From: Leisingera sp. SS27
GTDB taxonomy: Bacteria; Pseudomonadota; Alphaproteobacteria; Rhodobacterales; Rhodobacteraceae
Direction: 5' to 3'
Assembly: GCF_028368855.1 (NCBI RefSeq)
Contig: NZ_JAQNCY010000003.1
Coordinates: 124,001-188,000, forward strand
DNA: 64,000 nucleotides
A program made the translations under genes and the position numbers. Below are positions 40,376 through 55,693 of this stretch, one piece after another; position 1 is the stretch's first letter, and every line of letters begins with the position of its first letter. The notes beneath the pieces were generated by a model. That model saw only the letters and a list, made by a program, of their open reading frames with translations, made no database searches and was not told where the DNA came from.

Positions 40376-40518
40376 ACACCGGACGGGGTTGTCCGGGGAG
40401 GTTGCCGGCAGGATGCGCCGCCAGTATTGGAGGCTGCAAGAAGGGTCAAACGCCTTCGCCTGGCCGGTCAATGCCCTTTCACCCGTTCTCCGGTCATTGA
40501 CACATGGAGATCGAAATC

Positions 40519-41529
40519 ATGTTTCTGCGTTCCGGCCTGATGGGCCTTTCCTTCATTGCGGCCGCTCAGGCTGCTTCCGCGGGCGAAAACTTCCCGCTGA
40601 CCCTTCAAAACTGCGGCGAGACGGTCACTTTCGAGGCGCCGGTTGCGTCCTCCGTGACAGTCGGCCAAGCGGCAACTGAGGTGCTCTATGCGCTCGGCCT
40701 GGGAAACAAGGTGCTGGGCACTTCGGTCTGGTTCAACGATGTGCTGCCCGAATTTGCTGAGCTGAACGACAAGGTCGAACGCCTCGCGGACAACGACCCG
40801 AGCTTTGAAAGCGTCGTCGCCAAGCGTCCTGGATTGGTGGCGGCCCAGTATGAATGGCATGTAGGACCAGAAGGCGTGGTCGCCAAGCGCGAGCAGTTCC
40901 ATGACCTCGGCATACCGACCTATGTGATGCCTGCCGATTGCGTCGGCAAGGACAACACCACCGGCGGCGACGGAACCCGGACCGAAATGTTCACCACCGA
41001 CAGCCTCTATCAGGGCATCGAGGAACTGGCGGCGATCTTCGGCGACGCCGAAAAAGGCGCTGAGCTGGTAGCCGACTACAAGGCACGTGAGGCCGCTGCT
41101 GTGGCCAAGGCGCAGGAGGTTTCGCTGGAAGACGCCTCAGCCGTGTTCTGGTTCTCTTCACCCGAGATCGAGAGCGATCCGTTTGTAGCCGGTCAAAAGG
41201 GCGCACCGGGCTACATGATGCAGCAGCTGGGCCTGAAAAACGTCATCGAAACCGACGAAGAATGGCCGACCGTTGGCTGGGAAACCATTGCCAAGGCCAA
41301 CCCGACGGTGATCGTGATCGCCCGCATGGACCGCCGCCGCTTCGCCGCCGACGACTATGAAAAGAAGCTGGAATTCCTGCGTACTGACCCGGTTGCCAGC
41401 CAAATGGACGCGGTGAAGAACGATCGCATCGTGGTGATGGACGCGCAGGCAATGGACGCCACCATCCGCGCCATCCCGGCGCTGGAGGACCTGGCCGCTG
41501 AACTCAGCGCGATCGGCAACGGCGAATGA
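40519..41529 (+). CDS. Periplasmic binding protein of a cobalamin-regulated ABC importer (BtuF-like)
   Basis: A 336-residue type III (FecB/BtuF) binding protein. Signal peptide MFLRSGLMGLSFIAAAQAAS, then FPLTLQNCGETVTFEAPVAS, GQAATEVLYALGLGNKVLGTS and a C-terminal VGWETIAKANPTVIVI helix-strand unit. The ATG at 40519 has GGAG nine bases before it; an ATG at 40504 (MEIEI) would spoil the signal peptide. The riboswitch upstream points to cobalamin or a precursor as ligand. Siderophore binding proteins share the fold, so the call leans on the riboswitch. Confidence 0.85.
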   Translation: MFLRSGLMGLSFIAAAQAASAGENFPLTLQNCGETVTFEAPVASSVTVGQAATEVLYALGLGNKVLGTSVWFNDVLPEFAELNDKVERLADNDPSFESVVAKRPGLVAAQYEWHVGPEGVVAKREQFHDLGIPTYVMPADCVGKDNTTGGDGTRTEMFTTDSLYQGIEELAAIFGDAEKGAELVADYKAREAAAVAKAQEVSLEDASAVFWFSSPEIESDPFVAGQKGAPGYMMQQLGLKNVIETDEEWPTVGWETIAKANPTVIVIARMDRRRFAADDYEKKLEFLRTDPVASQMDAVKNDRIVVMDAQAMDATIRAIPALEDLAAELSAIGNGE

Positions 41530-42575
41530 GCGCAGCCGCCGCACTGGCCTTGCAGGGCATCCGGGGCGTTTGCCTGGCCCTGCCGGTTCTGGCTGCGGCG
41601 GTTCTGGCGGGCGCAATGATCGGGGAAACCCCGCTTGCGCCCGACCTTGTCCTGTCCGTTCTGGCCAACAAGCTGGCGGGCGCAGGCCTGCCGGTTGATC
41701 CGGTGGACCAGGGCATTGTCTGGAGCTACCGGCTGCCGCGGGCACTGGTGGCAGCGGCCTGCGGGGCGGCCCTGGCGGTGGCCGGCGTGGTGCTGCAGGC
41801 GCTGCTGCGCAACGCGCTGGCGGACCCTTACATTCTGGGCATTTCCGCCGGCGCCTCGACCGGCGCCGTGGCTGTCACAATTGCAGGGCTGGGCGGCGGC
41901 GCCCTGTCACTGTCTTTTGGCGCCTTCAACGGGGCGCTCCTGGCCTTTGGTTTTGTTGCCATTCTGGCGCGCGCCGCCGGGGCAGGGGGCAACCGTGCAG
42001 CGGCGGCGCAGATCGTGCTGGCGGGCATTGCCGGTTCACAGCTGTTCAATGCGCTTACCGCCTTCATCATTGCCAAGTCCGCCAATGCCGATCAGGCCCG
42101 CGGCATCATGTTCTGGCTGATGGGCAACCTCAGCGGCGTTCGCTGGACGGATGTGTGGCTGGCGGTGCCTCTGGCGCTGGCGGGCTGGATCATCTGCCGG
42201 TTCCATGCCCGCGCCCTTGACGCCTTCACTTTTGGCGCCGATTCCGCAGCTTCGCTTGGTATCCCGGTCCGCCGCGTGCAAGTGGTGCTGATTTTTGCCA
42301 CTGCGCTAATGACCGCGGTCATGGTGTCGATTGTTGGCTCCATCGGCTTCGTCGGTCTTGTGATCCCCCATGCAGCGCGGTTTCTGGTTGGTCCTGGCCA
42401 CCGCAGGCTGATGCCTGCCGCAGCTCTTACCGGCGCGGTGTTCCTGATTGCCGCCGACATTGTGTCCCGCATCATCATCCCCGGCCAGGTGCTGCCCATC
42501 GGGGTCGTTACCGCGCTGATCGGCGCGCCGTCCTTTGCGGTGATCCTGGTGCGCGGGCAAAGGGCCGCCCGATGA
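41526..42575 (+). CDS. FecCD/BtuC-type ABC permease
   Basis: A 349-residue membrane protein with about ten hydrophobic segments. YRLPRALVAAACGAALAVAGVVLQ, NALADPYILGISAGASTGAV, FWLMGNLSG and VGSIGFVGLVIPHAARFLVG are the standard signatures of BtuC/FecC/FhuB permeases. Overlaps the binding-protein stop codon (ATGA) and the ATPase start. Works as a homodimer with the binding protein and ATPase of this operon, under the upstream riboswitch. Confidence 0.92.
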   Translation: MSAAAALALQGIRGVCLALPVLAAAVLAGAMIGETPLAPDLVLSVLANKLAGAGLPVDPVDQGIVWSYRLPRALVAAACGAALAVAGVVLQALLRNALADPYILGISAGASTGAVAVTIAGLGGGALSLSFGAFNGALLAFGFVAILARAAGAGGNRAAAAQIVLAGIAGSQLFNALTAFIIAKSANADQARGIMFWLMGNLSGVRWTDVWLAVPLALAGWIICRFHARALDAFTFGADSAASLGIPVRRVQVVLIFATALMTAVMVSIVGSIGFVGLVIPHAARFLVGPGHRRLMPAAALTGAVFLIAADIVSRIIIPGQVLPIGVVTALIGAPSFAVILVRGQRAAR

Positions 42576-43333
42576 AGATCGAAGCCCGCAACCTATCTTT
42601 TGCCGTGCGCGGCAAAACCCTGCTGCAGGATGTGTCTCTATCCGTTGAGCCGGGCGAGACGCTGGCGCTGGTTGGTCCCAACGGCTCTGGCAAGTCGACC
42701 CTGATGCGTCTGCTTTCCGGTATCGCGAGACCGACACAGGGGCAGGTGCTGCTGGCAAACAAACCGCTGGCGCAGCTGACCCGCCGCCAGATTGCTCAGC
42801 GGATTGCCATTGTTGAACAGCAAGCTGAAACCGCGGAACGCATCACCGCCCGGTCGGTGGTGGAACTCGGGCGTACCCCCTGGCTGACGGCCCTGAACCC
42901 TTGGAGCGGTGACGACACTGCGCTGGTGGACAAGGCACTGGGCACGGTGGAGATGGAAAGCTTTGCTCTCCGGGAGTGGTCCACCCTGTCTGGTGGTGAG
43001 CGCCAGCGGCTTCACATCGCCCGCGCTTTGGCACAGCGTCCGGGGCTCTTGCTGCTGGATGAGCCGACGAACCACCTGGACATCCATCACCAGCTGTCGA
43101 TCCTGAATTGCATCCGCAATCTGAAAGTGACATCCGTTGTGGCTCTGCATGACCTGAACCAGGCCCTGACATGTGACAAGGTGGCAGTTCTGTCGCATGG
43201 GCGTCTGGCGGCCTTCGGAGCGCCGGAACAGGCGCTGGCGCCGGAAACGGTGTCGGATATCTTTGGGATCAGGGCCCGCTGGGTCCGGGACGCCGAAGGG
43301 GCAGATCCCTTTCTATCATTCCAGCTGACCTGA
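42572..43333 (+). CDS. ABC importer ATPase (BtuD/FecE-like)
   Basis: A 253-residue ATPase. Walker A VGPNGSGKSTLMRLL, Q-loop IVEQQAET, signature LSGGERQRLHIARAL, Walker B LLLLDEPTNHLDI and the switch His in VVALHDLNQAL identify the iron-siderophore/cobalamin import class. Start overlaps the permease stop. Last gene of the riboswitch-controlled operon and convergent with the LysR gene. Confidence 0.92.
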   Translation: MKIEARNLSFAVRGKTLLQDVSLSVEPGETLALVGPNGSGKSTLMRLLSGIARPTQGQVLLANKPLAQLTRRQIAQRIAIVEQQAETAERITARSVVELGRTPWLTALNPWSGDDTALVDKALGTVEMESFALREWSTLSGGERQRLHIARALAQRPGLLLLDEPTNHLDIHHQLSILNCIRNLKVTSVVALHDLNQALTCDKVAVLSHGRLAAFGAPEQALAPETVSDIFGIRARWVRDAEGADPFLSFQLT

Positions 43334-43386: not shown

Positions 43387-44274
43387 TCAGCCAGGTTCCC
43401 CGGACAAGTCGCAGAACTGGATGAAATTGCAGCATTCCTCGGTCAGCGCGGCAAAGCGGGACCGCTCGCGCTGGTAAAGGTAAACCGCACGCTTGTCAGG
43501 CAGGTCGGCAATCGGGCGGAACGCAGTGGCCTCCGGCATGAAACGTGCAACCGTCTGCGGCAGGACCGTTACCCATTTGCCGGTCCGCACCATGGTGATC
43601 AGCGAATGGGTGTTGTGGATCGTTATATCGGCTTTGCTGCTAGCTTCGACAAAGCGCTCATTCCTGATTAGATCGCACAGCGCATTACGGACAAAGGATG
43701 CGCCGGTCACATCGGCAATCGTCGGGACAGTCTTTTGCCGGTACAGAGGGTGTGCCGTGGAACAGACCAGGCCAAAACGGTCCTCGAACAAAGGAACTGC
43801 CTTCACGCCGTTCAGCGGGTGGTAGCCGGAGGCAATACCGATGTCCGCCTTGCCCTCCGCCAGCGCATCCAGCACCTCCTGGCTGTCGGTGTCGCGAAGC
43901 TCCACCTTGAGGCCTGGGTGGCGGGCCGTCATGTGCTCCAGCACAGCCGGGAAAACCAGGGCTGCAACCGACGGAACCGAGACGATTTGCAGCAGCCCGT
44001 GGGCCGCCTCTGCCGCCAATTCGATGCTTTGCACGGTTTGGTCGAAGCGCCGAACCTGCTGCTGGGCCAGTTCAAAAACCTGTGCGCCCAAAGGCGACAG
44101 CTGGTTTTTGCGCTCGCCCTCGAACAGCTTCTTACCCAGATGGTCCTCCATCTGCTTCAGAGTCATTGAAACGGCGGACTGGGTCCGGCCCAGCCTGTTT
44201 GCGGCCTCAGACAGGTTGCCGGTTTGGGCTACAGTGCAAAAGGCGCGCAGCATTTCGATTTTCAGGGCCATCAT
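43387..44274 (-). CDS. LysR-type regulator of the neighbouring catabolic operon
   Basis: A 295-residue LysR regulator. Helix-turn-helix at about residues 5-65 (MLRAFCTVAQTGNLSEAANRL, QSAVSMTLKQMEDHLG), followed by a ligand-binding domain (GLLQIVSVPSVAALVFPAVLE; ADIGIASGYHPLNGVK). Divergent from the aldehyde dehydrogenase gene with about 100 bases between starts, the usual place for LysR control of an adjacent pathway. The inducer is unknown and is likely to be the substrate of the downstream operon. Confidence 0.9.
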   Translation of the reverse strand: MMALKIEMLRAFCTVAQTGNLSEAANRLGRTQSAVSMTLKQMEDHLGKKLFEGERKNQLSPLGAQVFELAQQQVRRFDQTVQSIELAAEAAHGLLQIVSVPSVAALVFPAVLEHMTARHPGLKVELRDTDSQEVLDALAEGKADIGIASGYHPLNGVKAVPLFEDRFGLVCSTAHPLYRQKTVPTIADVTGASFVRNALCDLIRNERFVEASSKADITIHNTHSLITMVRTGKWVTVLPQTVARFMPEATAFRPIADLPDKRAVYLYQRERSRFAALTEECCNFIQFCDLSGEPG

Positions 44275-44375
44275 TCAAGTTTTCTGAAGTTACTTACAGT
44301 TTATTGAGTTTGACTGATGTGGCTGGCAGAGTCCATCCTGCTGCAAACCTGAAATTCATCATCTGGGGCCGTACT

Positions 44376-45821
44376 GTGACCAAACTGAACCTGATTGCCG
44401 GCGAATGGCTGGCGGGCGAAAGCGAAATCGAAAACCGCAACCCTTCAGATCTAAGCGATCTGGTCGGCATGTTTGCCCAGGCCAGCTCCGATCAGCTGGA
44501 CGCCACTCTGGAACAGGCGCAAATCGCACAGCGGGAATGGGCGGCTTACGGGCTGGAACGCAAACAGGCGGTGCTGATGAACATCGGCAATGAGCTGATG
44601 GCCCGCGCAGAGGAATTGGGCACGCTCTTGAGCCGCGAAGAAGGCAAGCCGCTGGCCGAGGGCAAGGGCGAAGTTTACCGCGCCGGACAGTTCTTCACCT
44701 ATTATGCTGCCGAATGCTTGCGTCAGATCGGTGAAAACGCCGACTCCGTGCGTCCGGACATCGAAGTGGACGTGCGCCGCGAAGCGGTGGGTGTGGTGGC
44801 CATCATCTCCCCCTGGAACTTTCCGACAGCAACCGCGTCGTGGAAAATCGCGCCGGCGCTGTGCTACGGCAATGCCGTGGTATGGAAGCCCGCGAACATC
44901 ACTCCTGCATCGGCTGTTGCCCTGACTGAAATCATTGCCAAGCAGGACATCCCGAAGGGCCTGTTCTCGCTGGTCATGGGATCCGGCCGCTCAATCGGCC
45001 AGCGCCTGGTCGAAAGCCCCAAGGTGAATGCTATTTCGTTCACCGGCTCTGTGCCGGTGGGCAAAGGCATTGCGTCCGCCGCCATCCAGAACCTGACCAA
45101 GGTGCAGATGGAGATGGGTTCCAAGAACGCACTCGCCGTCATGGATGACGCTGACCTCGATCTGGCTGTCACCCTGGCGCTGGGCGGCGCCTTCGGCGGC
45201 ACCGGGCAGAAATGCACCGCCTCCTCCCGGCTCGTGGTCCACGCGGCCATTCATGATGCCTTTGTCGACAAGCTTGTCGCCGGGGCACAGGCCATGAAAG
45301 TGGGCCACGCGCTGGAAGCGGGCGTGCAGATGGGGCCGGTGGTCAGCGAGCAGCAGCTGAATGAAAACCTGTCCTATGTTGACCTTGGCACATCTGAAGG
45401 CGCCGAACTGGCCTGCGGCGGCCAGCGCCTCGAGATGCCGCACGAAGGCTTCTACATGTCCCCGGGCGTGTTCCTGAACACCACCAACGACATGCGCATC
45501 AACCGCGAGGAAATGTTTGCGCCGCTGACCAGCGTTATCAAGGTCGGCAGCTATGACGAAGCGCTGAGTGTAGTGAATGACACCAACTTCGGCCTGACCT
45601 CCGGCATCGTGACCCAGTCGCTGGCCCGCGCCACCCACTTCCGCCGCAATGCGCGCACCGGTGTGGTGACCGTCAACCTGCCGACCGCAGGCACCGACTA
45701 TCACGTGCCTTTCGGCGGCCGCGGCGACAGCTCCTATGGCCCGCGCGAGCAAGGCAAGGCTGCGGCGGAGTTCTACACCACCGTCAAGACCGCCTACATC
45801 AGCGCCGGCAAGCCGACCTGA
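44376..45821 (+). CDS. NAD(P)-dependent aldehyde dehydrogenase, semialdehyde type
   Basis: A 481-residue ALDH. General base Glu246 in VQMEMGSKN, nucleophile Cys280 in GTGQKCTASSRLVV, cofactor loop ISPWNFPTATASWKIAPAL and FTGSVPVGKGI. The GQKCTASSR context is like that of alpha-ketoglutarate semialdehyde and related dehydrogenases, so the substrate may be an acidic semialdehyde; this is inference. I set the start at the GTG at 44376 (VTKLNLIAGEW aligns with ALDH N-termini); a longer frame back to 44082 overlaps the LysR gene. First gene of the operon running to the BCCT transporter. Confidence 0.88.
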   Translation: MTKLNLIAGEWLAGESEIENRNPSDLSDLVGMFAQASSDQLDATLEQAQIAQREWAAYGLERKQAVLMNIGNELMARAEELGTLLSREEGKPLAEGKGEVYRAGQFFTYYAAECLRQIGENADSVRPDIEVDVRREAVGVVAIISPWNFPTATASWKIAPALCYGNAVVWKPANITPASAVALTEIIAKQDIPKGLFSLVMGSGRSIGQRLVESPKVNAISFTGSVPVGKGIASAAIQNLTKVQMEMGSKNALAVMDDADLDLAVTLALGGAFGGTGQKCTASSRLVVHAAIHDAFVDKLVAGAQAMKVGHALEAGVQMGPVVSEQQLNENLSYVDLGTSEGAELACGGQRLEMPHEGFYMSPGVFLNTTNDMRINREEMFAPLTSVIKVGSYDEALSVVNDTNFGLTSGIVTQSLARATHFRRNARTGVVTVNLPTAGTDYHVPFGGRGDSSYGPREQGKAAAEFYTTVKTAYISAGKPT

Positions 45822-45957
45822 GACTGAAATCCTGGCCGTGCCGAAGACCGGCCTGCCAGTTTGCGGAAGCGCCCGCCCTCTTGTTTCCCCTGTGGCGGGC
45901 GCGTCCTGCCCGCCGCCTGAGGGCCGGGTGCGCGACATTGATAACCGAGGTGCTTGA

Positions 45958-46941
45958 ATGACCGGATACCGTATCGACTGCCTGCAGTATGCCAACTGGT
46001 CCGAGAAAATTTTCCGCCAGCTGCGCGAGGGCGGCGTGGACGCAATCCATGTCACCATTGCCTATCACGAGACCTTCCGCGAGACGGTCCTGAACTTCGA
46101 GAAATGGAACCGCTGGTTCGAGCAGTACCCGGACCTGATTATGAAGGGGCAGTGGGCTTCTGACATCGACAAGGCCCGTGAAACCGGCCGCACGGCAGTG
46201 TTTTTTGGCTTTCAGAACCCCTCGCCGATGGAGGATGATATCGGGCTGGTCGAGATCCTGCACACGCTCGGCGCCCGATTCATGCAGCTCACCTACAATA
46301 ACCAGTCGCTGCTGGCGACGGGCTGCTACGAGGCCGAAGACATGGGCATCACCCGCATGGGCAAGCAGGTGATCAAGGAAATGAACCGGGTTGGCCTGGT
46401 CGTGGACATGAGCCATTCCGCTGACCGCTCCACCATTGAGGCGGCGGAGATTTCCACCCGTCCGATTGCCATAACCCATGCCAACCCGCATGAATGGTCG
46501 CCTGCGCTGCGCAACAAGAAGGATGACGTCATCCGCGCGGTCACCGGCCATGGCGGTATGCTGGGGTTCTCGGTCTATCCGCACCACTTGAAGGGCAAGT
46601 CCGACTGTACCCTGCAAAGCTTCTGCGAGATGATCGCGCGCACTGCCGAGAAATACGGGGTGGAGCATCTCGGGATCGGTACTGATCTCTGCCAGGATCA
46701 GCCCGACAGCATCGTTGAATGGATGCGCGTGGGCCGCTGGACGAAAGAGATCGACTACGGCGAAGGATCAGCCGCCGCACCGGGTTTCCCGGCAATGCCT
46801 AGCTGGTTCAACGATAACCGCGACTTTGGAAACATCGAAGAAGGCCTTCGCGCGACAGGCATGAACGATGACGAGGTCAGCGGCATCATGGGCGGGAACT
46901 GGTACCGGTTCTTTGCCGAAAACTTTGGCCCAAAGGGATAG
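45958..46941 (+). CDS. M19 (renal dipeptidase)-like protein lacking usual metal ligands
   Basis: A 327-residue amidohydrolase-fold protein. The second-half signatures of family M19 are kept: LTYNNQSLLATGCYE (about 111-125), VVDMSHSA with His153, ITHANPH with His174 and His178, and GIGTDLCQ with Asp243. The N-terminal DGHND metal motif is missing; the start reads MTGYRIDCLQYANWSEKIF. The bridging Glu of the usual GVEG is Gln86 (GFQNPSP). So a normal two-zinc centre is unlikely and true dipeptidase activity doubtful. The ATG follows GAGGTGCTTGA. From memory, a similar dipeptidase-like gene sits in Pseudomonas dimethylglycine clusters, also of unknown role. Confidence 0.8.
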   Translation: MTGYRIDCLQYANWSEKIFRQLREGGVDAIHVTIAYHETFRETVLNFEKWNRWFEQYPDLIMKGQWASDIDKARETGRTAVFFGFQNPSPMEDDIGLVEILHTLGARFMQLTYNNQSLLATGCYEAEDMGITRMGKQVIKEMNRVGLVVDMSHSADRSTIEAAEISTRPIAITHANPHEWSPALRNKKDDVIRAVTGHGGMLGFSVYPHHLKGKSDCTLQSFCEMIARTAEKYGVEHLGIGTDLCQDQPDSIVEWMRVGRWTKEIDYGEGSAAAPGFPAMPSWFNDNRDFGNIEEGLRATGMNDDEVSGIMGGNWYRFFAENFGPKG

Positions 46942-46944
46942 GTC

Positions 46945-48633
46945 ATGGAAACAACCGCGCAGACAACGATATCACGACGGGATCCGGCTCAGGTGATGCG
47001 CCTCAGCCGTCTTGGCTCTTTGCATCAGTGCCGCCTCAGCTTCATGCGGGTGCTCACTCGGCGGATGGCCCGGGAAAACTGGAGCTTTGCACGCCCCAAG
47101 TTCGATATCGATGCCAAGGGCGTCGGCGTGGCGGTGTATACTGCCACCGGCCCTGCGCGGACCTATTCTCTGATTGCCTTTGCGCACGACCTGCCGCCTG
47201 AAATGCGGTCGGACCGGGTGATTGCCACTGCCTGGGACGCTACCTTTACCCTGTTTGACGGGGTGCCAACGGACGACGACATTGAACGCTTGTCAAAAAA
47301 CGTGCCGTATCAGGAAGCGGGCCGGGTCAATGAGAAATCCCTGTCTGTTTCCCGCGCCAACCGCTCAGTGCGCCTCTGGGCGCATTTCGTTGACGCGCTA
47401 TCACAGGGCCGGCAGCCGGACCCCGCGCAGGTGGAGGCTGTCGGTTACCTGATGCGAACCACCGCCGTCTACGGCTCCGGCAAGCTGGGAGCTGCAGACC
47501 GTGAGGCGATTGCCGACCGCCCCGAACTCGTCGCACCATTCCAGGCAGAGATGCTGTCGGTCTATCTGACCCGCGTTTTTGTCCGCGATCTGGTTGAACA
47601 TATGGCCCGCGCAAAAGGCGGCGAAAACGCTGTGCCGCTGGCGCCGGAAACCGCACGGCGGCTGGGCATCGGCAATTCCACCGGCCTTGGCATGGCGCCG
47701 TATATCGTCAACCACCCGGTGCTGTTCAACAACTGGATCATGGCGCGGGAAGAGGCGATTGCCCGGGTGCGATCGGTCGAAACTGCGACCGATGAGGAAG
47801 CCGCTTGCTTCCGCCGGATGCTGCGGCGGAGCGAGCTGTCAGCAGGGCGCTGGCACTCCGAACACCCAGTGCAGATCGAAAAACTGGCCAGCCTGCGCAA
47901 GGATCTGGATGCGCTGGCCGCCTGGGTCGCCTCCGATGATTTGCTCAACGATAAACCCTGGAACCGCTTGATCCGCTGGAGCGAGACAGAACTGAGCCTT
48001 GAAGGGCAGGAACTGGCGGCTTCGCTGATCCTTGAACCCTATGCTGAGCTGGTGGACGGGCTGTCCGACTGCATGGCCGACGCAAACAAAGACGCCTTTA
48101 TCATCAACGGTGCTATGCCGGTCGCGCAGGTGCGGGAGCTTCTCAGGGACAGTTTTGGCTGGGCGCTGGATCTGGACTGGTCTGCCCGCGAAAACATCGC
48201 CCGCGCCTGGTATGTCTCGGAGGAGAAACTGGAGCCGCGCATGGGCGAGCGTTTTGATGAGCCGATTGCTGAATATGAACAGCCGCTGGCCCCGGCCCGC
48301 GACGCGGCTGCCGCTCATGCAGCGCTGGCCGGCTGGGAGGGAGAGGAGCCCATCGCAGCTTTCCTGCTGCGCCATCCGGAACACCGCCACACCGTGCGCC
48401 GGGCGCAGATGAGCCTGGTTGCGCCTTATGGTGAAATCCGCAGCAACACCATCAGCGATCGTGTGCTGCCGATCGATATGCTGCGGGCCAAGCTTGCGTT
48501 TTTTGGGGCCACCCATTTCGACCCGCGTTCTGACCGCTGGGTGCGGATCTGCATGTATGCGGGTGCGCCGTATCCGGAGGACCTGTCCACCTCCAACGCC
48601 GATCTGTGGGTTTATCCGGAGGCAGACCAATGA
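46945..48633 (+). CDS. 562-residue protein of unrecognised family in the catabolic operon
   Basis: A soluble protein with no signal peptide or membrane segment and no motif I recognise. It begins after a 3-base gap from the M19-like gene and overlaps the DUF3726-like gene by 28 bases, so all three are probably made together. Features that can be seen: a basic N-terminus (LSRLGSLHQCRLSFMRVLTRRM), repeated Trp-rich helices, an invariant-looking NSTGLGMAPYIVNHPVLFN block at about 250, and a C-terminal SLVAPYGEIRSNTISDRVLP with HFDPRSDRWVRICMY. The N-Ser-Thr-Gly-Leu-Gly-Met stretch could bind a nucleotide or substrate. I cannot assign a function. Confidence 0.8.
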   Translation: METTAQTTISRRDPAQVMRLSRLGSLHQCRLSFMRVLTRRMARENWSFARPKFDIDAKGVGVAVYTATGPARTYSLIAFAHDLPPEMRSDRVIATAWDATFTLFDGVPTDDDIERLSKNVPYQEAGRVNEKSLSVSRANRSVRLWAHFVDALSQGRQPDPAQVEAVGYLMRTTAVYGSGKLGAADREAIADRPELVAPFQAEMLSVYLTRVFVRDLVEHMARAKGGENAVPLAPETARRLGIGNSTGLGMAPYIVNHPVLFNNWIMAREEAIARVRSVETATDEEAACFRRMLRRSELSAGRWHSEHPVQIEKLASLRKDLDALAAWVASDDLLNDKPWNRLIRWSETELSLEGQELAASLILEPYAELVDGLSDCMADANKDAFIINGAMPVAQVRELLRDSFGWALDLDWSARENIARAWYVSEEKLEPRMGERFDEPIAEYEQPLAPARDAAAAHAALAGWEGEEPIAAFLLRHPEHRHTVRRAQMSLVAPYGEIRSNTISDRVLPIDMLRAKLAFFGATHFDPRSDRWVRICMYAGAPYPEDLSTSNADLWVYPEADQ

Positions 48634-49259
48634 GCTATGCGCTGAACGAAGTCGAAGCCACCGCCAAACGTGCCGCCCGCGGCGCGGGTTACAATTGGGG
48701 GCTGGCCGAGGAGGCCGCAAAGGCCACCCGCTGGCTCTGTGCGCAAGGGTTGGACGGAACCGCCGTACTGGCAGGCTTGCTTGAGGCGGGATATGCCGCG
48801 GACCTGTCCGCCCATGTGCCGCAAAGCTTGCAGGGAGAGTGGCAGGCCGGGGCACCGCTCTGTCCGCTGGCAACCGGTGCTGCCGTGTCGGACTGCGCTG
48901 CCGGTCTGAAGCAGGCTCCTCTAGAGCTTGGATCTGTCTCCCAGCCCGCGATGGTCCTGCCTTTCGCGGCGTTGGCCGCCCGCCAAACAGGCACCTGCAT
49001 CACTGTCGAAGGGAAGGGCTTTCAAGCCGTTACCGACGGGTTCCAGCTGCAGTGCGAAGGCACTCTCCCGGATGCGGCGGACAGGCTGACAATCCGCGCT
49101 GCGGGTAATATCGCCCAGCCGAACCCAAGCTGCACCCGGGCAGAACCGGAGGAGTCCGTCTGGGCTACCCTGAACCGCTATGCCCATAAAACCTACGCTC
49201 CGGCCACTGAGGAGTCGCGCCTGCTGGGCGCCGGCGCCGGACTGTCGGACAACGACTGA
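48606..49259 (+). CDS. DUF3726-like protein
   Basis: A 217-residue soluble protein. The N-terminus (LNEVEATAKRAARGAGYNWG LAEEA) is the part I associate with DUF3726, from memory. There is a hydrophobic middle (QPAMVLPFAALAARQTG) but no signal peptide. Overlaps the 562-residue gene and precedes the Ldh2 reductase by 12 bases. A helper or processing role in the pathway is possible; function unknown. Confidence 0.65.
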   Translation: MGLSGGRPMSYALNEVEATAKRAARGAGYNWGLAEEAAKATRWLCAQGLDGTAVLAGLLEAGYAADLSAHVPQSLQGEWQAGAPLCPLATGAAVSDCAAGLKQAPLELGSVSQPAMVLPFAALAARQTGTCITVEGKGFQAVTDGFQLQCEGTLPDAADRLTIRAAGNIAQPNPSCTRAEPEESVWATLNRYAHKTYAPATEESRLLGAGAGLSDND

Positions 49260-49271
49260 AGAGGCGTCAAC

Positions 49272-50282
49272 ATGACCGAAACCAGAACCATGACCCTTGC
49301 CGAGATCGAGGACCTGTCCTTCCGCGCCCTGGTGGCCGCAGGCACGTCCGAGGCCAACGCCCGCCCGCTGGCGGTCGCCACAGCCGCGACTGAGGCAGAC
49401 GGCGTCGCCAGCCATGGCCTCGCCTATATCCCGATCTATGCTGAGCATGTGCAATGCGGAAAGGTGGACGGGCAGGCGGTTCCAGTGCTGGCCCGCCCGC
49501 GTCCCGGTGTCGTGGCGGTGGATGCCGCCACCGGCTTTGCCCATTCCGCCATCGATCAGGGCTTTGAGGCGCTGATCCCGGCGGTACGCGAGCAGGGCGT
49601 CGCGGTTCTGGCGATTCGTAACAGCTACAACTGCGGTGTTCTGGGCTACCATACCGCCCGCCTGGCACGCGCCGGGCTGGTCGGCCTCGGCTTCACCAAC
49701 GCGCCGGCTTCCATTGCGCCGTCGGGTGGTAAAAAGCCGGTTGTCGGCACCAATCCGTTCTCGGTTGCTGTGCCAGGCGCGGACGGCGAGCCGGAACTGC
49801 TGATCGACCAGAGCGCCAGCACCATTGCCAAAAGCGAAGTGATGAAGCACGCCCGCGAGGGCAAGGAAATCCCGCTGGGCTGGGCGCTGGATGCCGACGG
49901 CAACCCGACCACCGATCCGGATGCAGGCCTCAAGGGTTCGATGGCGCCTTCGGGCGGTTACAAGGGTGTCGGCGTTGCGCTGCTGACCGAAATCATGGCT
50001 GCCGCGCTGACCGGCGCGACCCTTGGCATCAACGCCTCGCCCTTCTCGGGCACTGCAGGCGGGCCGCCGAAAACCGGCCAGATGTTCATTGCAATCGACC
50101 CGGATGCGACAGCAAATGACGCTTTTGGTGCCGGAATGGCCGGGATCGTGGAAGCGGTGCGCGGGCAAGACGGCGCACATCTGCCCGGAGACGGGCGGCG
50201 GGCAAAGCGCTTGCAGGCCCGTCAGGACGGCGTCGCTGTCAGCGTAGCAACGCTGGCGAGGATCGAAGCCCTGCTGGGCTGA
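49272..50282 (+). CDS. Ldh2-family NAD(P)H oxidoreductase (imine/2-keto acid reductase type)
   Basis: A 336-residue enzyme of the malate/L-lactate dehydrogenase (Ldh_2) family, whose members reduce 2-keto acids, delta1-pyrroline-2-carboxylate or delta1-piperideine-2-carboxylate. Seen: ADGVASHGLAYIPIYAEHV with the conserved Ser-His-Gly, VVAVDAATGFAHSAID, NSYNCGVLGYHTARLA where DpkA-type enzymes have NSHH, GTNPFSVAVPG and SGGYKGVGVALLTEIM. GAGGCGTCAAC precedes the ATG. With the semialdehyde-type ALDH it suggests breakdown of a cyclic imino acid or hydroxy acid. The exact substrate cannot be read. Confidence 0.85.
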   Translation: MTETRTMTLAEIEDLSFRALVAAGTSEANARPLAVATAATEADGVASHGLAYIPIYAEHVQCGKVDGQAVPVLARPRPGVVAVDAATGFAHSAIDQGFEALIPAVREQGVAVLAIRNSYNCGVLGYHTARLARAGLVGLGFTNAPASIAPSGGKKPVVGTNPFSVAVPGADGEPELLIDQSASTIAKSEVMKHAREGKEIPLGWALDADGNPTTDPDAGLKGSMAPSGGYKGVGVALLTEIMAAALTGATLGINASPFSGTAGGPPKTGQMFIAIDPDATANDAFGAGMAGIVEAVRGQDGAHLPGDGRRAKRLQARQDGVAVSVATLARIEALLG

Positions 50283-50359
50283 CGCCAGATACCGGCGGTT
50301 GCGCGAACCGCCGGACAATCCGCACCCCGGTGCGGCACGTGCGAAACGGGAGGAAACGC

Positions 50360-52183
50360 ATGTCAATAAAACAACCTTTTACGGATCTGGAGATCAAGAC
50401 CTCCGACGAGGGCTTCTACAAGGGGCACAGCGTCGAGATCGCCTTGCTCAGCAAGGGGATCATGGTCGCCCTGGTTCTTTGGGCACTGGTCTGGCCGGCA
50501 AACGCTACTGGCGTGCTGGGCAGCCTCAACTGGCGTATTCTTGAGGATTTCAACGCCTTCTACATCGTCATCGTCGGTTTCTTCGCCTTTTTCCTGTTTG
50601 TGGTCGCCGCATTGCCGCAAACCGGTAAGCGGATCATGGGGGGACCGGGCCAAGGCAAGGAATTCTCGGATTTCTCGTGGTTCTCGATGATGTTCGGCGC
50701 CGGTCTGGGCGTCGGCCTGATGGTCTTCGCAACCGCTGAGCCGCTGGGCCTGTGGGGTTCCAACCCCGTGGTTCTGGCGCAGGAAGTGGCCGGAAACACC
50801 GAAGAAGCGGTACAGTCCGGCTTCCGCTACACCTTCCTGCACTACGGCTTTCACGCCTGGGCTATCTATGTGGTGACCGGCCTGTCGCTGGCCTACTACG
50901 CCTATACCCGTGACATGCCGCTGACCATCCGCACTGCGCTGACTCCGCTGTTCGGTAAGCTGATGAACGGTTTCCTGGGTCACGTCGTTGACGTGCTGGG
51001 TGTTGTCGCCACCATCCTGGGTGTCTCCGTGACTATCGGCTTCGGTGTGTCCCAGTTCGTGGACGGCGCCTATGCCATCACCGGCATGGAGTGGATGATG
51101 GACATGAGCGGCGATGCACCGGCACCGGGCACCGTTGGCCTGCTGGCCGGCCTGTTCGCAATCATGGGTCTGTCGATCATCTCGGCTGTGTCCGGCGTTG
51201 GCCGCGGCGTGAAGTATCTGTCGAACCTGAACCTGGTTCTGTCGATCATCCTGCTGCTGACCTTCGTGGTCTTCGGTTCCTTCATGTTCGCCATGACCAC
51301 CTATGCGTCCGCCTTCGTGGACTACATCCTGCACTTCACCTCGCTGAGCTTCGGCGCCTATGGCCCGCAGTCGGCAGCTGACTTCGCAGCAGCCCTTCCG
51401 GCGGATGCCGCACCCTACGCAGATGCTCTGCGCGGCGGTGCAACCAATGCCTGGGGTTCCTTCGATGGCTTCAAGTCCGGCCTGGAAGGCGAAGCTGCTG
51501 CTCTGTCCGACGACGTTCTGGCAGCAACCTATGCAGCCGGTGAAGCACAGCGCCAGTTCGGCTGGCAGGCTGGCTGGACCACCTTCTACTGGGCCTGGTG
51601 GATTGCTTTCTCGCCCTTCGTCGGCCTGTTCCTGGCACGCATTTCCCGTGGCCGTTCGGTGCGTGAGTTCATCGTGGGCTGCGTGTTCGCACCGGCGCTG
51701 GTCTGCTTTGCCTGGATGACCATCCTGGGCGGCACTGCCATCGACCTGGAACTGACCGGCGGCGCCGAAGGCGCAATCATCGGCGCATCGAACACCGCCA
51801 AGCTGTTCGTGACCCTGGGCCAGATGATCGACGGCGGCCTGCTGTCCGGCATCACCATCATGTGCGTTGTGCTGATCATGACCTTTCTGGTCACCTCGGC
51901 AGACTCCGGCATCCTGGTGATGAACACCATCATGTCCGGCGGCGACCAGAACATCGGCAACAAGCACAAGATCGTTTGGGGCCTGATCCTGACCGCCGTG
52001 ATCGGCACCCTGCTGTTCGCAGGCAAGCAGAACGGCGGAGCCGATCCGATGGAAGCGCTGAAAAGCGCGATGATCATCGGCGCGCTGCCCTTCACCATGG
52101 TCATGGGCCTGATGTGCGTGTCCCTGGCCAAGGCGCTGTTCCGCGACGGCCAGCGTGAAAAGGCTGCGGCTCCGGCCGAATGA
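50360..52183 (+). CDS. BCCT family transporter
   Basis: A 607-residue carrier of the betaine/carnitine/choline family with about 12 membrane segments. GLGVGLMVFATAEPLGLWGSNP is the signature first loop and FYWAWWIAFSPFVGLFLARISRG carries the conserved Trp-rich segment of TM8. LVTSADSGILVMNTIMSGG is also conserved. A loop of about 65 residues, rich in Ala and Asp (around 345-410), interrupts the middle. The start at 50360 follows GGGAGGAAACGC. As the last gene of the LysR-linked operon it most likely imports the operon's substrate, a quaternary ammonium or sulfonium zwitterion by family habit. Confidence 0.92.
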   Translation: MSIKQPFTDLEIKTSDEGFYKGHSVEIALLSKGIMVALVLWALVWPANATGVLGSLNWRILEDFNAFYIVIVGFFAFFLFVVAALPQTGKRIMGGPGQGKEFSDFSWFSMMFGAGLGVGLMVFATAEPLGLWGSNPVVLAQEVAGNTEEAVQSGFRYTFLHYGFHAWAIYVVTGLSLAYYAYTRDMPLTIRTALTPLFGKLMNGFLGHVVDVLGVVATILGVSVTIGFGVSQFVDGAYAITGMEWMMDMSGDAPAPGTVGLLAGLFAIMGLSIISAVSGVGRGVKYLSNLNLVLSIILLLTFVVFGSFMFAMTTYASAFVDYILHFTSLSFGAYGPQSAADFAAALPADAAPYADALRGGATNAWGSFDGFKSGLEGEAAALSDDVLAATYAAGEAQRQFGWQAGWTTFYWAWWIAFSPFVGLFLARISRGRSVREFIVGCVFAPALVCFAWMTILGGTAIDLELTGGAEGAIIGASNTAKLFVTLGQMIDGGLLSGITIMCVVLIMTFLVTSADSGILVMNTIMSGGDQNIGNKHKIVWGLILTAVIGTLLFAGKQNGGADPMEALKSAMIIGALPFTMVMGLMCVSLAKALFRDGQREKAAAPAE

Positions 52184-52366: not shown

Positions 52367-54706
<2,340 letters not shown>

Positions 54707-54775
54707 TCATGAGGCTAGCAGGGAAAAGTCATTGGGATAAGTTGCATTTATTCATCGCTCTGATAATCAATTCCT

Positions 54776-55693
54776 ATGATAAACGTGACCCTTCGCCAGA
54801 TGCGCTACTTCGAGGCGCTGGCCCTGCACCGCCATTTCGGACGCGCGGCCGATGCCTGCGCGGTGTCTCAGCCAGCTTTGTCTGTTCAGATCAAGGAGTT
54901 GGAGGAGGCACTGGGCGTGCAGCTGGTGGAACGCGGAGCCCGACAGGTGCGGCTCACCAGCCTGGGCGAGGATCTGGCCGCCCGCGTGCGCGGCATTCTG
55001 CGCTCGGTGGATGAGCTGGGCGAGCTGGCGCGGGCCTCGCGTGACGGGCTGGCAGGGCGGCTGCGCATCGGGGTGATTCCCACCATTGCACCCTATTTGC
55101 TGCCCTCCATCGTGGGTACGCTCACCCGCCAGTACCCCGAGGCCGACATCCGCGTCCGCGAAACGGTGACGCCCAAGCTGCTGGAGGAGCTGGGGGAGGG
55201 GCGGCTTGACACGGCCATCGTCGCACTGCCGGTGTCTGAGCCATCCTATGAAGAGGTGCCGCTGTTTGCTGAGGACTTTGTTCTGGTGCGCCCGGGAGAA
55301 GATGCCGGCACGCCGGTTCCGGGTCCCGAAGGCTTGCGCGAGATGCGCCTCCTGCTGCTGGAGGAGGGGCATTGCTTCCGCGATCAGGCGCTCTCCTTCT
55401 GCAACATGCAGTCCGCCGCCCCGCGGGAACTCTTGGACGGCAGCTCCCTGTCAACTCTGGTGCAGATGGTCAGCGCCGGGATCGGTGTGACGCTGATCCC
55501 GGAAATGGCGGTGCCGGTGGAAACCCGCTCGGCGGAAGTGTCGGTTGCCCGTTTCCGCGACCCGCAACCCTCGCGCACCATCGGCATGATCTGGCGCCGC
55601 AGCAACCCGCTGGCACGGCAGCTGATGCAGGTGGCAGAGGTGGTCCGCCAGGCTGCGGACGGGTTGCGGTCCAGCTATGCGCCGATGGGCTGA
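54776..55693 (+). CDS. oxyR: Hydrogen peroxide-responsive regulator OxyR
   Basis: A 305-residue LysR-type regulator. The N-terminal helix-turn-helix is FGRAADACAVSQPALSVQIK. The redox pair that marks OxyR is present: Cys200 and Cys209 in LLLLEEGHCFRDQALSFCNM, matching the Cys199/Cys208 pair of E. coli. Divergent from katG across 207 bases that include an AT-rich stretch (CTGATAATCAATTCCTATGATAA) just ahead of oxyR. Oxidation of the cysteines should switch on katG. Confidence 0.95.
   Translation: MINVTLRQMRYFEALALHRHFGRAADACAVSQPALSVQIKELEEALGVQLVERGARQVRLTSLGEDLAARVRGILRSVDELGELARASRDGLAGRLRIGVIPTIAPYLLPSIVGTLTRQYPEADIRVRETVTPKLLEELGEGRLDTAIVALPVSEPSYEEVPLFAEDFVLVRPGEDAGTPVPGPEGLREMRLLLLEEGHCFRDQALSFCNMQSAAPRELLDGSSLSTLVQMVSAGIGVTLIPEMAVPVETRSAEVSVARFRDPQPSRTIGMIWRRSNPLARQLMQVAEVVRQAADGLRSSYAPMG

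Follow-up and report, generated by a model that had tools for sequence, protein, structure and literature searches.

Seven genes at positions 43387-52183 of a 64,000-nucleotide window from Leisingera sp. SS27 (contig NZ_JAQNCY010000003.1, positions 124,001 to 188,000) probably form a homarine (N-methylpicolinate) catabolic (hom) operon. The operon is conserved in Rhodobacterales, is joined in some relatives by genes of the N-methylglutamate dehydrogenase (mgd) type, and has at its centre two proteins, a 562-residue protein that we call U562 and a DUF3726 protein, which we propose open the pyridinium ring. All seven frames are free of internal stops at the positions given by an initial annotation made from the letters alone, the whole stretch has one full-length match in its own genome (4.8 Mb, 30 contigs), and Pfam agrees with six of the seven gene names, U562 being the exception. 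The features are:

43387..44274, minus strand: LysR-type regulator, candidate homR (Pfam HTH_1, 1e-17; LysR_substrate, 3e-32)
44275..44375, no strand: divergent promoter region, whose TTCA...TGAA and TTGAGTTTGACTGAT stretches, kept in an alignment of 10 relatives, are likely a LysR operator
44376..45821, plus strand: aldehyde dehydrogenase (ALDH), GTG start (Pfam Aldedh, 3e-149)
45958..46941, plus strand: M19-fold hydrolase with an altered metal site, proposed N-formyl hydrolase (Pfam Peptidase_M19, 1e-71)
46945..48633, plus strand: U562, which we propose as the main subunit of a ring-opening enzyme (no family match)
48630..49259, plus strand: DUF3726 protein, proposed to pair with U562 as its small subunit (Pfam DUF3726, 5e-21; 74.8 bits, cut-off 22.1)
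49272..50282, plus strand: Ldh2-family reductase (Pfam Ldh_2, 7e-92)
50360..52183, plus strand: BCCT-family transporter, proposed homarine importer (Pfam BCCT, 4e-140)

Intergenic distances in gene order are 101 bp (the divergent region), 136, 3, -4 (an ATGA overlap), 12 and 77 bp. The initial description of the genes as separated by short gaps or overlaps is therefore right for most junctions but not for the 136-bp ALDH-M19 and 77-bp Ldh2-BCCT gaps. The middle genes are tightly packed, since M19 and U562 lie 3 bp apart and the U562 and DUF3726 genes share an ATGA. The ALDH-M19 gap is about 120-170 bp long in Leisingera-type loci and shorter than 40 bp in 60 of the 75 loci that have both genes; in the window (45822-45957) a strong GC-rich hairpin is predicted within it (z -3.07).

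A scan with U562 gave 142 relatives, and gene order was counted at the best 80; because these loci were picked by similarity to U562, the counts do not describe a random sample. M19, U562 and DUF3726 lie in order on one strand at all 80 loci, the full series ALDH-M19-U562-DUF3726-Ldh2 does so at 69, and a divergent LysR gene stands upstream in 66 of those 69. Loss of this order in relatives had been named beforehand as an outcome that would speak against the proposed pathway; instead, the arrangement is conserved far beyond chance. A BCCT gene of the window's type follows Ldh2 by less than 400 bp at 38 of the 80 loci. Those with 86-96% U562 identity (best segment) are all from Leisingera, apart from one in a metagenome-assembled member of the Rhodobacteraceae (L031). 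One U562 match (L016, G015:C6:138271-139932) carries a single internal TGA and represents either a pseudogene or a sequencing error.

Linkage to mgd points to homarine as the substrate, a compound already among the candidates of the initial annotation. In Aliiroseovarius crassostreae, the region beyond the operon's LysR gene holds a complete operon of the soxBDAG type together with an AraC-type gene; in Ruegeria sp. TM1040 this AraC gene is accompanied by genes for the alpha and gamma subunits at least. An MgdC-type gene is found within 6 kb at 5 of the 80 loci (L040, L055, L056, L089 and L103) and anywhere in the examined flank at 6. Of the 37 family genomes whose U562 relative is close, 4 (G075, G086, G100 and G117) have such a gene within 7 kb by positions read by eye, loci L169 and L170 coming from two of them, and plasmid records L129 and L130 show mgd-type linkage as well. 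Four long alpha-subunit relatives are present in the Leisingera genome itself; one of them, on contig C3, adjoins a trimethylamine monooxygenase gene (tmm) that scores above the NCBIfam cut-off and an AraC gene 51% identical to that of Aliiroseovarius. In a tree of 13 alpha subunits, the operon-linked copies L040, L055, L103, L130, L169 and L170 group with the C3 copy (support 100/99); these six loci stand for five genomes, L169 being the Shimia contig of L055 again with the same sequence. This clade and the surroundings of the C3 copy argue that the operon's neighbour is of the Mgd type. One recent paper places mgdABCD beside tmaR, an AraC-type gene, within the Ruegeria pomeroyi trimethylamine cluster, an arrangement matched by the surroundings of the C3 copy, and states that a role of Mgd in homarine catabolism has been reported (PMC13390433, citing Ferrer-Gonzalez et al. 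2026, Nat Microbiol).

Co-occurrence was counted in 120 family genomes, with any alpha subunit above 1000 bits taken as mgd-like, so that the C3 and C23 types of the Leisingera genome were pooled. With kinship ignored, such a subunit is present in 35 of 37 genomes in which a U562 relative reaches 57% identity (in one of them, G115, U562 is in pieces only) versus 50 of 83 in which none does (Fisher p 6e-5), and, when distant U562 relatives are included, in 49 of 54 versus 36 of 66 (p 1.4e-5). A second alpha subunit of the mgd/sarcosine-oxidase type lies on the window's contig outside the window (G000:C23:80543-83527, L148), near a glutamate-dehydrogenase-like gene; it scores below the NCBIfam cut-off.

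Homarine is a common algal osmolyte and the likely substrate. We propose that it would be imported by the BCCT transporter and that its pyridinium ring would be opened between C5 and C6 by U562 with DUF3726 as its small partner, giving an N-formyl-N-methyl-amino semialdehyde. ALDH would then oxidise the C5 aldehyde, the M19 protein would release the N-formyl group as formate, and Ldh2 would reduce the resulting N-methyl imine to N-methylglutamate. Conversion of the latter to glutamate and a C1 unit would fall to N-methylglutamate dehydrogenase (mgdABCD), encoded elsewhere in the genome, with the operon under control of its LysR protein. The calculated net balance would be C7H7NO2 + O2 + 2 H2O + 2[H] -> C6H11NO4 + HCOOH. 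If N-methylglutamate is formed from homarine, ring carbons C2 to C5 should be kept and C6 lost, and cleavage of pyridine carboxylates between C5 and C6 gives N-formyl intermediates in the nicotinate and trigonelline pathways. Under this scheme every enzyme gene receives a role and none is left over. The main alternative for the first step is hydrolytic opening to 2-(methylamino)muconate semialdehyde, which leaves the loss of one carbon unexplained. The initial annotation, which proposed that a betaine-like or N-heterocyclic osmolyte is taken up and converted as far as a semialdehyde, is partly supported: this reading fits and the gene order is conserved. The single steps given here are inferred.

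U562 has no match in Pfam, NCBIfam, PADLOC or PHROGs at E 0.01. Against the PDB its best single-sequence E value is 0.12; a profile of 15 divergent members, used to look for a known fold, reached 0.026 with V-ATPase subunit C, which is not credible. Fifteen aligned members, selected for divergence, share 58 invariant positions, rich in Arg and Gly and including His257, Glu269, Glu356, Glu364 and Tyr423. In Mesorhizobium sp. 131-2-1, U562 and DUF3726 are fused in one 814-aa gene (L135:8944-11388). On the simplest reading, U562 and DUF3726 associate as the subunits of a single two-part enzyme, the M19 protein acts on its direct product, and ALDH and Ldh2 carry out further, substrate-specific steps. 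One end of DUF3726 (TYAPATEESRLLGAGAG...) is conserved, which suggests a functional tail. Whether DUF3726 might be a degenerate Ldh2 domain was considered and found unsupported: the profile-profile probability is 3.8%, and a PDB profile search gave one match, to an unrelated repressor (E 0.45). Two distant proteins in the DUF3726 position do have weak Pfam Ldh_2 matches (E 0.025 and 0.0054). No paper in the collection searched names DUF3726.

The remaining enzymes can be placed by family. The M19 protein fits the Pfam profile from profile position 33 onward, and its altered metal site is shared by 11 of 11 aligned sequences (two of them 98% identical): Gln replaces the bridging Glu (GxQN for GxEG), and HxD is absent. 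HxD and the bridging Glu are ligands of the binuclear zinc site of M19 dipeptidases, so the protein lacks the zinc-ligand motif of membrane dipeptidase; His153, His174, Arg185 and Asp243 are invariant. Its closest PDB chain, and closest solved M19 relative, is 2i5g, an 'amidohydrolase' with the same Gln for Glu and the same 'IDxL' start. ALDH, whose GTG start is kept in 9 of 10 aligned sequences, lies nearest to the NCBIfam models for alpha-ketoglutaric semialdehyde and 2,5-dioxovalerate dehydrogenase (479 bits, below the equivalog cut-off of 770); these are models of C5-semialdehyde dehydrogenases, in keeping with the proposed oxidation at C5. The nearest solved relative of Ldh2 is DpkA, the delta1-piperideine-2-carboxylate / N-methyl-amino-acid reductase (PDB 1wtj/2cwf/2cwh, E 4e-57 over a full-length 333 residues). 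The reductase of the window is a distant member of that family, below the cut-offs of all five NCBIfam Ldh2-type models listed. DpkA is also active on N-methyl amino acids, and since it reduces a C=N bond next to a carboxylate, an imine reductase role would suit Ldh2. The transporter scores 375 bits with the NCBIfam equivalog model for glycine betaine BCCT carriers, short of the 650-bit cut-off.

M19, U562 and DUF3726 form a tighter core than the full five-enzyme set (80 against 69 of the 80 loci). U562 relatives occur in 54 of 120 family genomes (that of Leisingera sp. SS27 counted), 53 of 385 genomes of a class sample and 29 of 398 of a phylum sample. Four of the class-sample genomes are small (1.2-1.4 Mb, 94-99% complete), with a G+C content of 28-36% at their loci, and appear to resemble SAR11-type genomes. 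An extended set of 129 loci added to the 80 a further 20 from the family (including the Leisingera paralogue), 18 from outside it and 11 from plasmid records; the added loci were hand-picked, score limits were permissive, and the set includes near relatives and single contigs entered under two ids. An M19 gene lies within 6 kb of U562 at 126 of these loci (the exceptions being L108, L119 and L126), ALDH at 91 and an Ldh2-family gene at 87. In other Proteobacteria the core recurs in the absence of Ldh2 and in some cases of ALDH as well; it is also found in the 1.2-1.4 Mb genomes. Loci in Pseudomonas sp. MPC6 and Vibrio sp. THAF190c have ALDH, M19 and BCCT genes, with no Ldh2 gene found nearby. 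Sinorhizobium meliloti pSymA, Aminobacter aminovorans and Variovorax sp. SRS16 carry the set IclR-U562-small protein-M19 without a neighbouring Ldh2; the small protein is below the Pfam DUF3726 threshold, and we call it DUF3726-like because of its position and its low-identity alignment with DUF3726 proteins. The pSymA cluster (L132:8220-19324), an uncharacterised relative, continues with an ATP-binding cassette (ABC) transporter, an aminotransferase and a semialdehyde dehydrogenase. The transporter slot is likewise variable, being filled by a BCCT carrier of the window's type, by a second BCCT gene between M19 and U562 (Ruegeria sp. TM1040 and L034) or by ABC systems (glycine-betaine-type in Aminobacter sp. 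SR38, branched-chain-type in Mesorhizobium). BCCT and glycine-betaine ABC systems are the usual carriers of betaine-like compounds.

Several observations weigh against homarine catabolism as we propose it, or against parts of it. At 11 of the 80 loci ALDH and/or Ldh2 is missing nearby (Ldh2 at 10, ALDH at 5); a short contig or partial match may explain some of these (L061 and L098), but in most of the 11 the flank was of sufficient length. Ldh2 is also missing nearby at the copy in Phaeobacter inhibens DSM 17395, and a core that also occurs without ALDH and Ldh2 may have several substrates. Adjacency of mgd is a minority pattern, at the 5 of 80 loci given above, and the Fisher test both ignores relatedness and pools two groups of subunit. 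The soxA-type neighbours in three small genomes could not be accepted as mgd: L155 groups with L149 of the Leisingera genome and L171 and L172 stand apart; meeting long branches and unlike composition were flagged for these rows of the tree. No metal, flavin or other cofactor motif was recognised in U562, by eye only. Finally, the identity of the operon with hom is itself an inference.

It is also conceivable, if unlikely, that the operon degrades another N-methylated zwitterion, such as trigonelline or hydroxyproline betaine, through comparable steps. Many different betaines are transported by BCCT carriers. In Pseudomonas sp. MPC6 the neighbours of U562 relatives include Rieske, racemase-like and additional BCCT genes, and in A. 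aminovorans they include a gene resembling trimethylamine methyltransferase. Some genomes, that of Leisingera sp. SS27 among them, have two U562 copies. The second Leisingera copy (43% identical; L108:7535-11036, G000:C7) is accompanied by a LysR gene and by a DUF3726-like frame, seen by eye and missed by the profile, with no M19 gene near; it perhaps serves a second substrate. The conserved set, however, has no demethylase, whereas an mgd-type demethylase recurs beside the operon. For trigonelline in particular, the TgnABCDE pathway shares with our scheme the substrate class (N-methylpyridinium carboxylates), an ALDH and a formamide-type intermediate, but the flavin monooxygenase/reductase pair TgnAB has no counterpart among the seven genes: Pfam, in a search confined to their products, finds no domains of the TgnA or TgnB type, and in our scheme U562 and DUF3726 would take over that role.

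Less probable still is cleavage of the substrate to methylamine and a keto acid, with mgd linked only through methylamine use via gamma-glutamylmethylamide and N-methylglutamate. Passages of the paper on the trimethylamine cluster do place mgd in methylamine use (PMC13390433), and the linked AraC protein resembles the regulator of that cluster, but an Ldh2 imine reductase would be left without a clear role. An ordinary dipeptide or amino-acid salvage operon, with an M19 dipeptidase, an ALDH, a malate/lactate dehydrogenase and a transporter, matches the automatic annotation and is very improbable, given that the dipeptidase metal ligands are lost in all 11 aligned relatives, the transporters seen are of BCCT, betaine-type or branched-chain-type ABC families and not annotated peptide carriers, and Ldh2 is nearest to an imine reductase.

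A homarine catabolic operon thus remains the reading we favour, and it would probably mean that the operon itself is not new. An operon homABCDER with N-methylglutamate as product has reportedly been described by Ferrer-Gonzalez and colleagues in 2026; to judge by its name, it would have in common with the present operon the number of enzymes and a regulator, besides a marine Rhodobacterales host and the link to Mgd. The initial statement that no known pathway has this gene set therefore probably fails. Our searches on homarine and related catabolism, judged by titles, abstract openings and passages, found no paper describing hom genes.

Directly downstream of the operon (window 52367-55693), outside the conserved set, are a catalase-peroxidase-like gene on the minus strand and a divergent, OxyR-like LysR gene, identified by eye. 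On the upstream side (window 40504-43333) are ABC uptake genes for a binding protein, a permease and an ATPase, by eye of the iron/cobalamin type.

What would be novel is the first step, the opening of an aromatic pyridinium ring by two proteins of no known function. As a broader and more tentative possibility, U562 and DUF3726 could together make up an enzyme of a new type, built from two subunits in which neither a cofactor site nor a known fold can be recognised. It would dearomatise N-methylpyridinium substrates, and perhaps further cationic ring or betaine compounds, and open them, working with an M19-derived deformylase. The core of U562, DUF3726 and M19 would then have been re-used with differing accessory enzymes, regulators and transporters across Proteobacteria, including small ocean-type genomes. 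In diatom-derived medium, homarine was one of the metabolites taken up by R. pomeroyi whose mean lifetime was at most 2 h (PMC12817926), and such fast uptake makes homarine degradation likely to be a real flux of carbon and nitrogen in the ocean. If the operon is hom, ring opening would proceed without a recognised oxygenase, which could be tested directly with two purified proteins, and the U562/DUF3726 gene pair would provide a searchable marker for this process in metagenomes.

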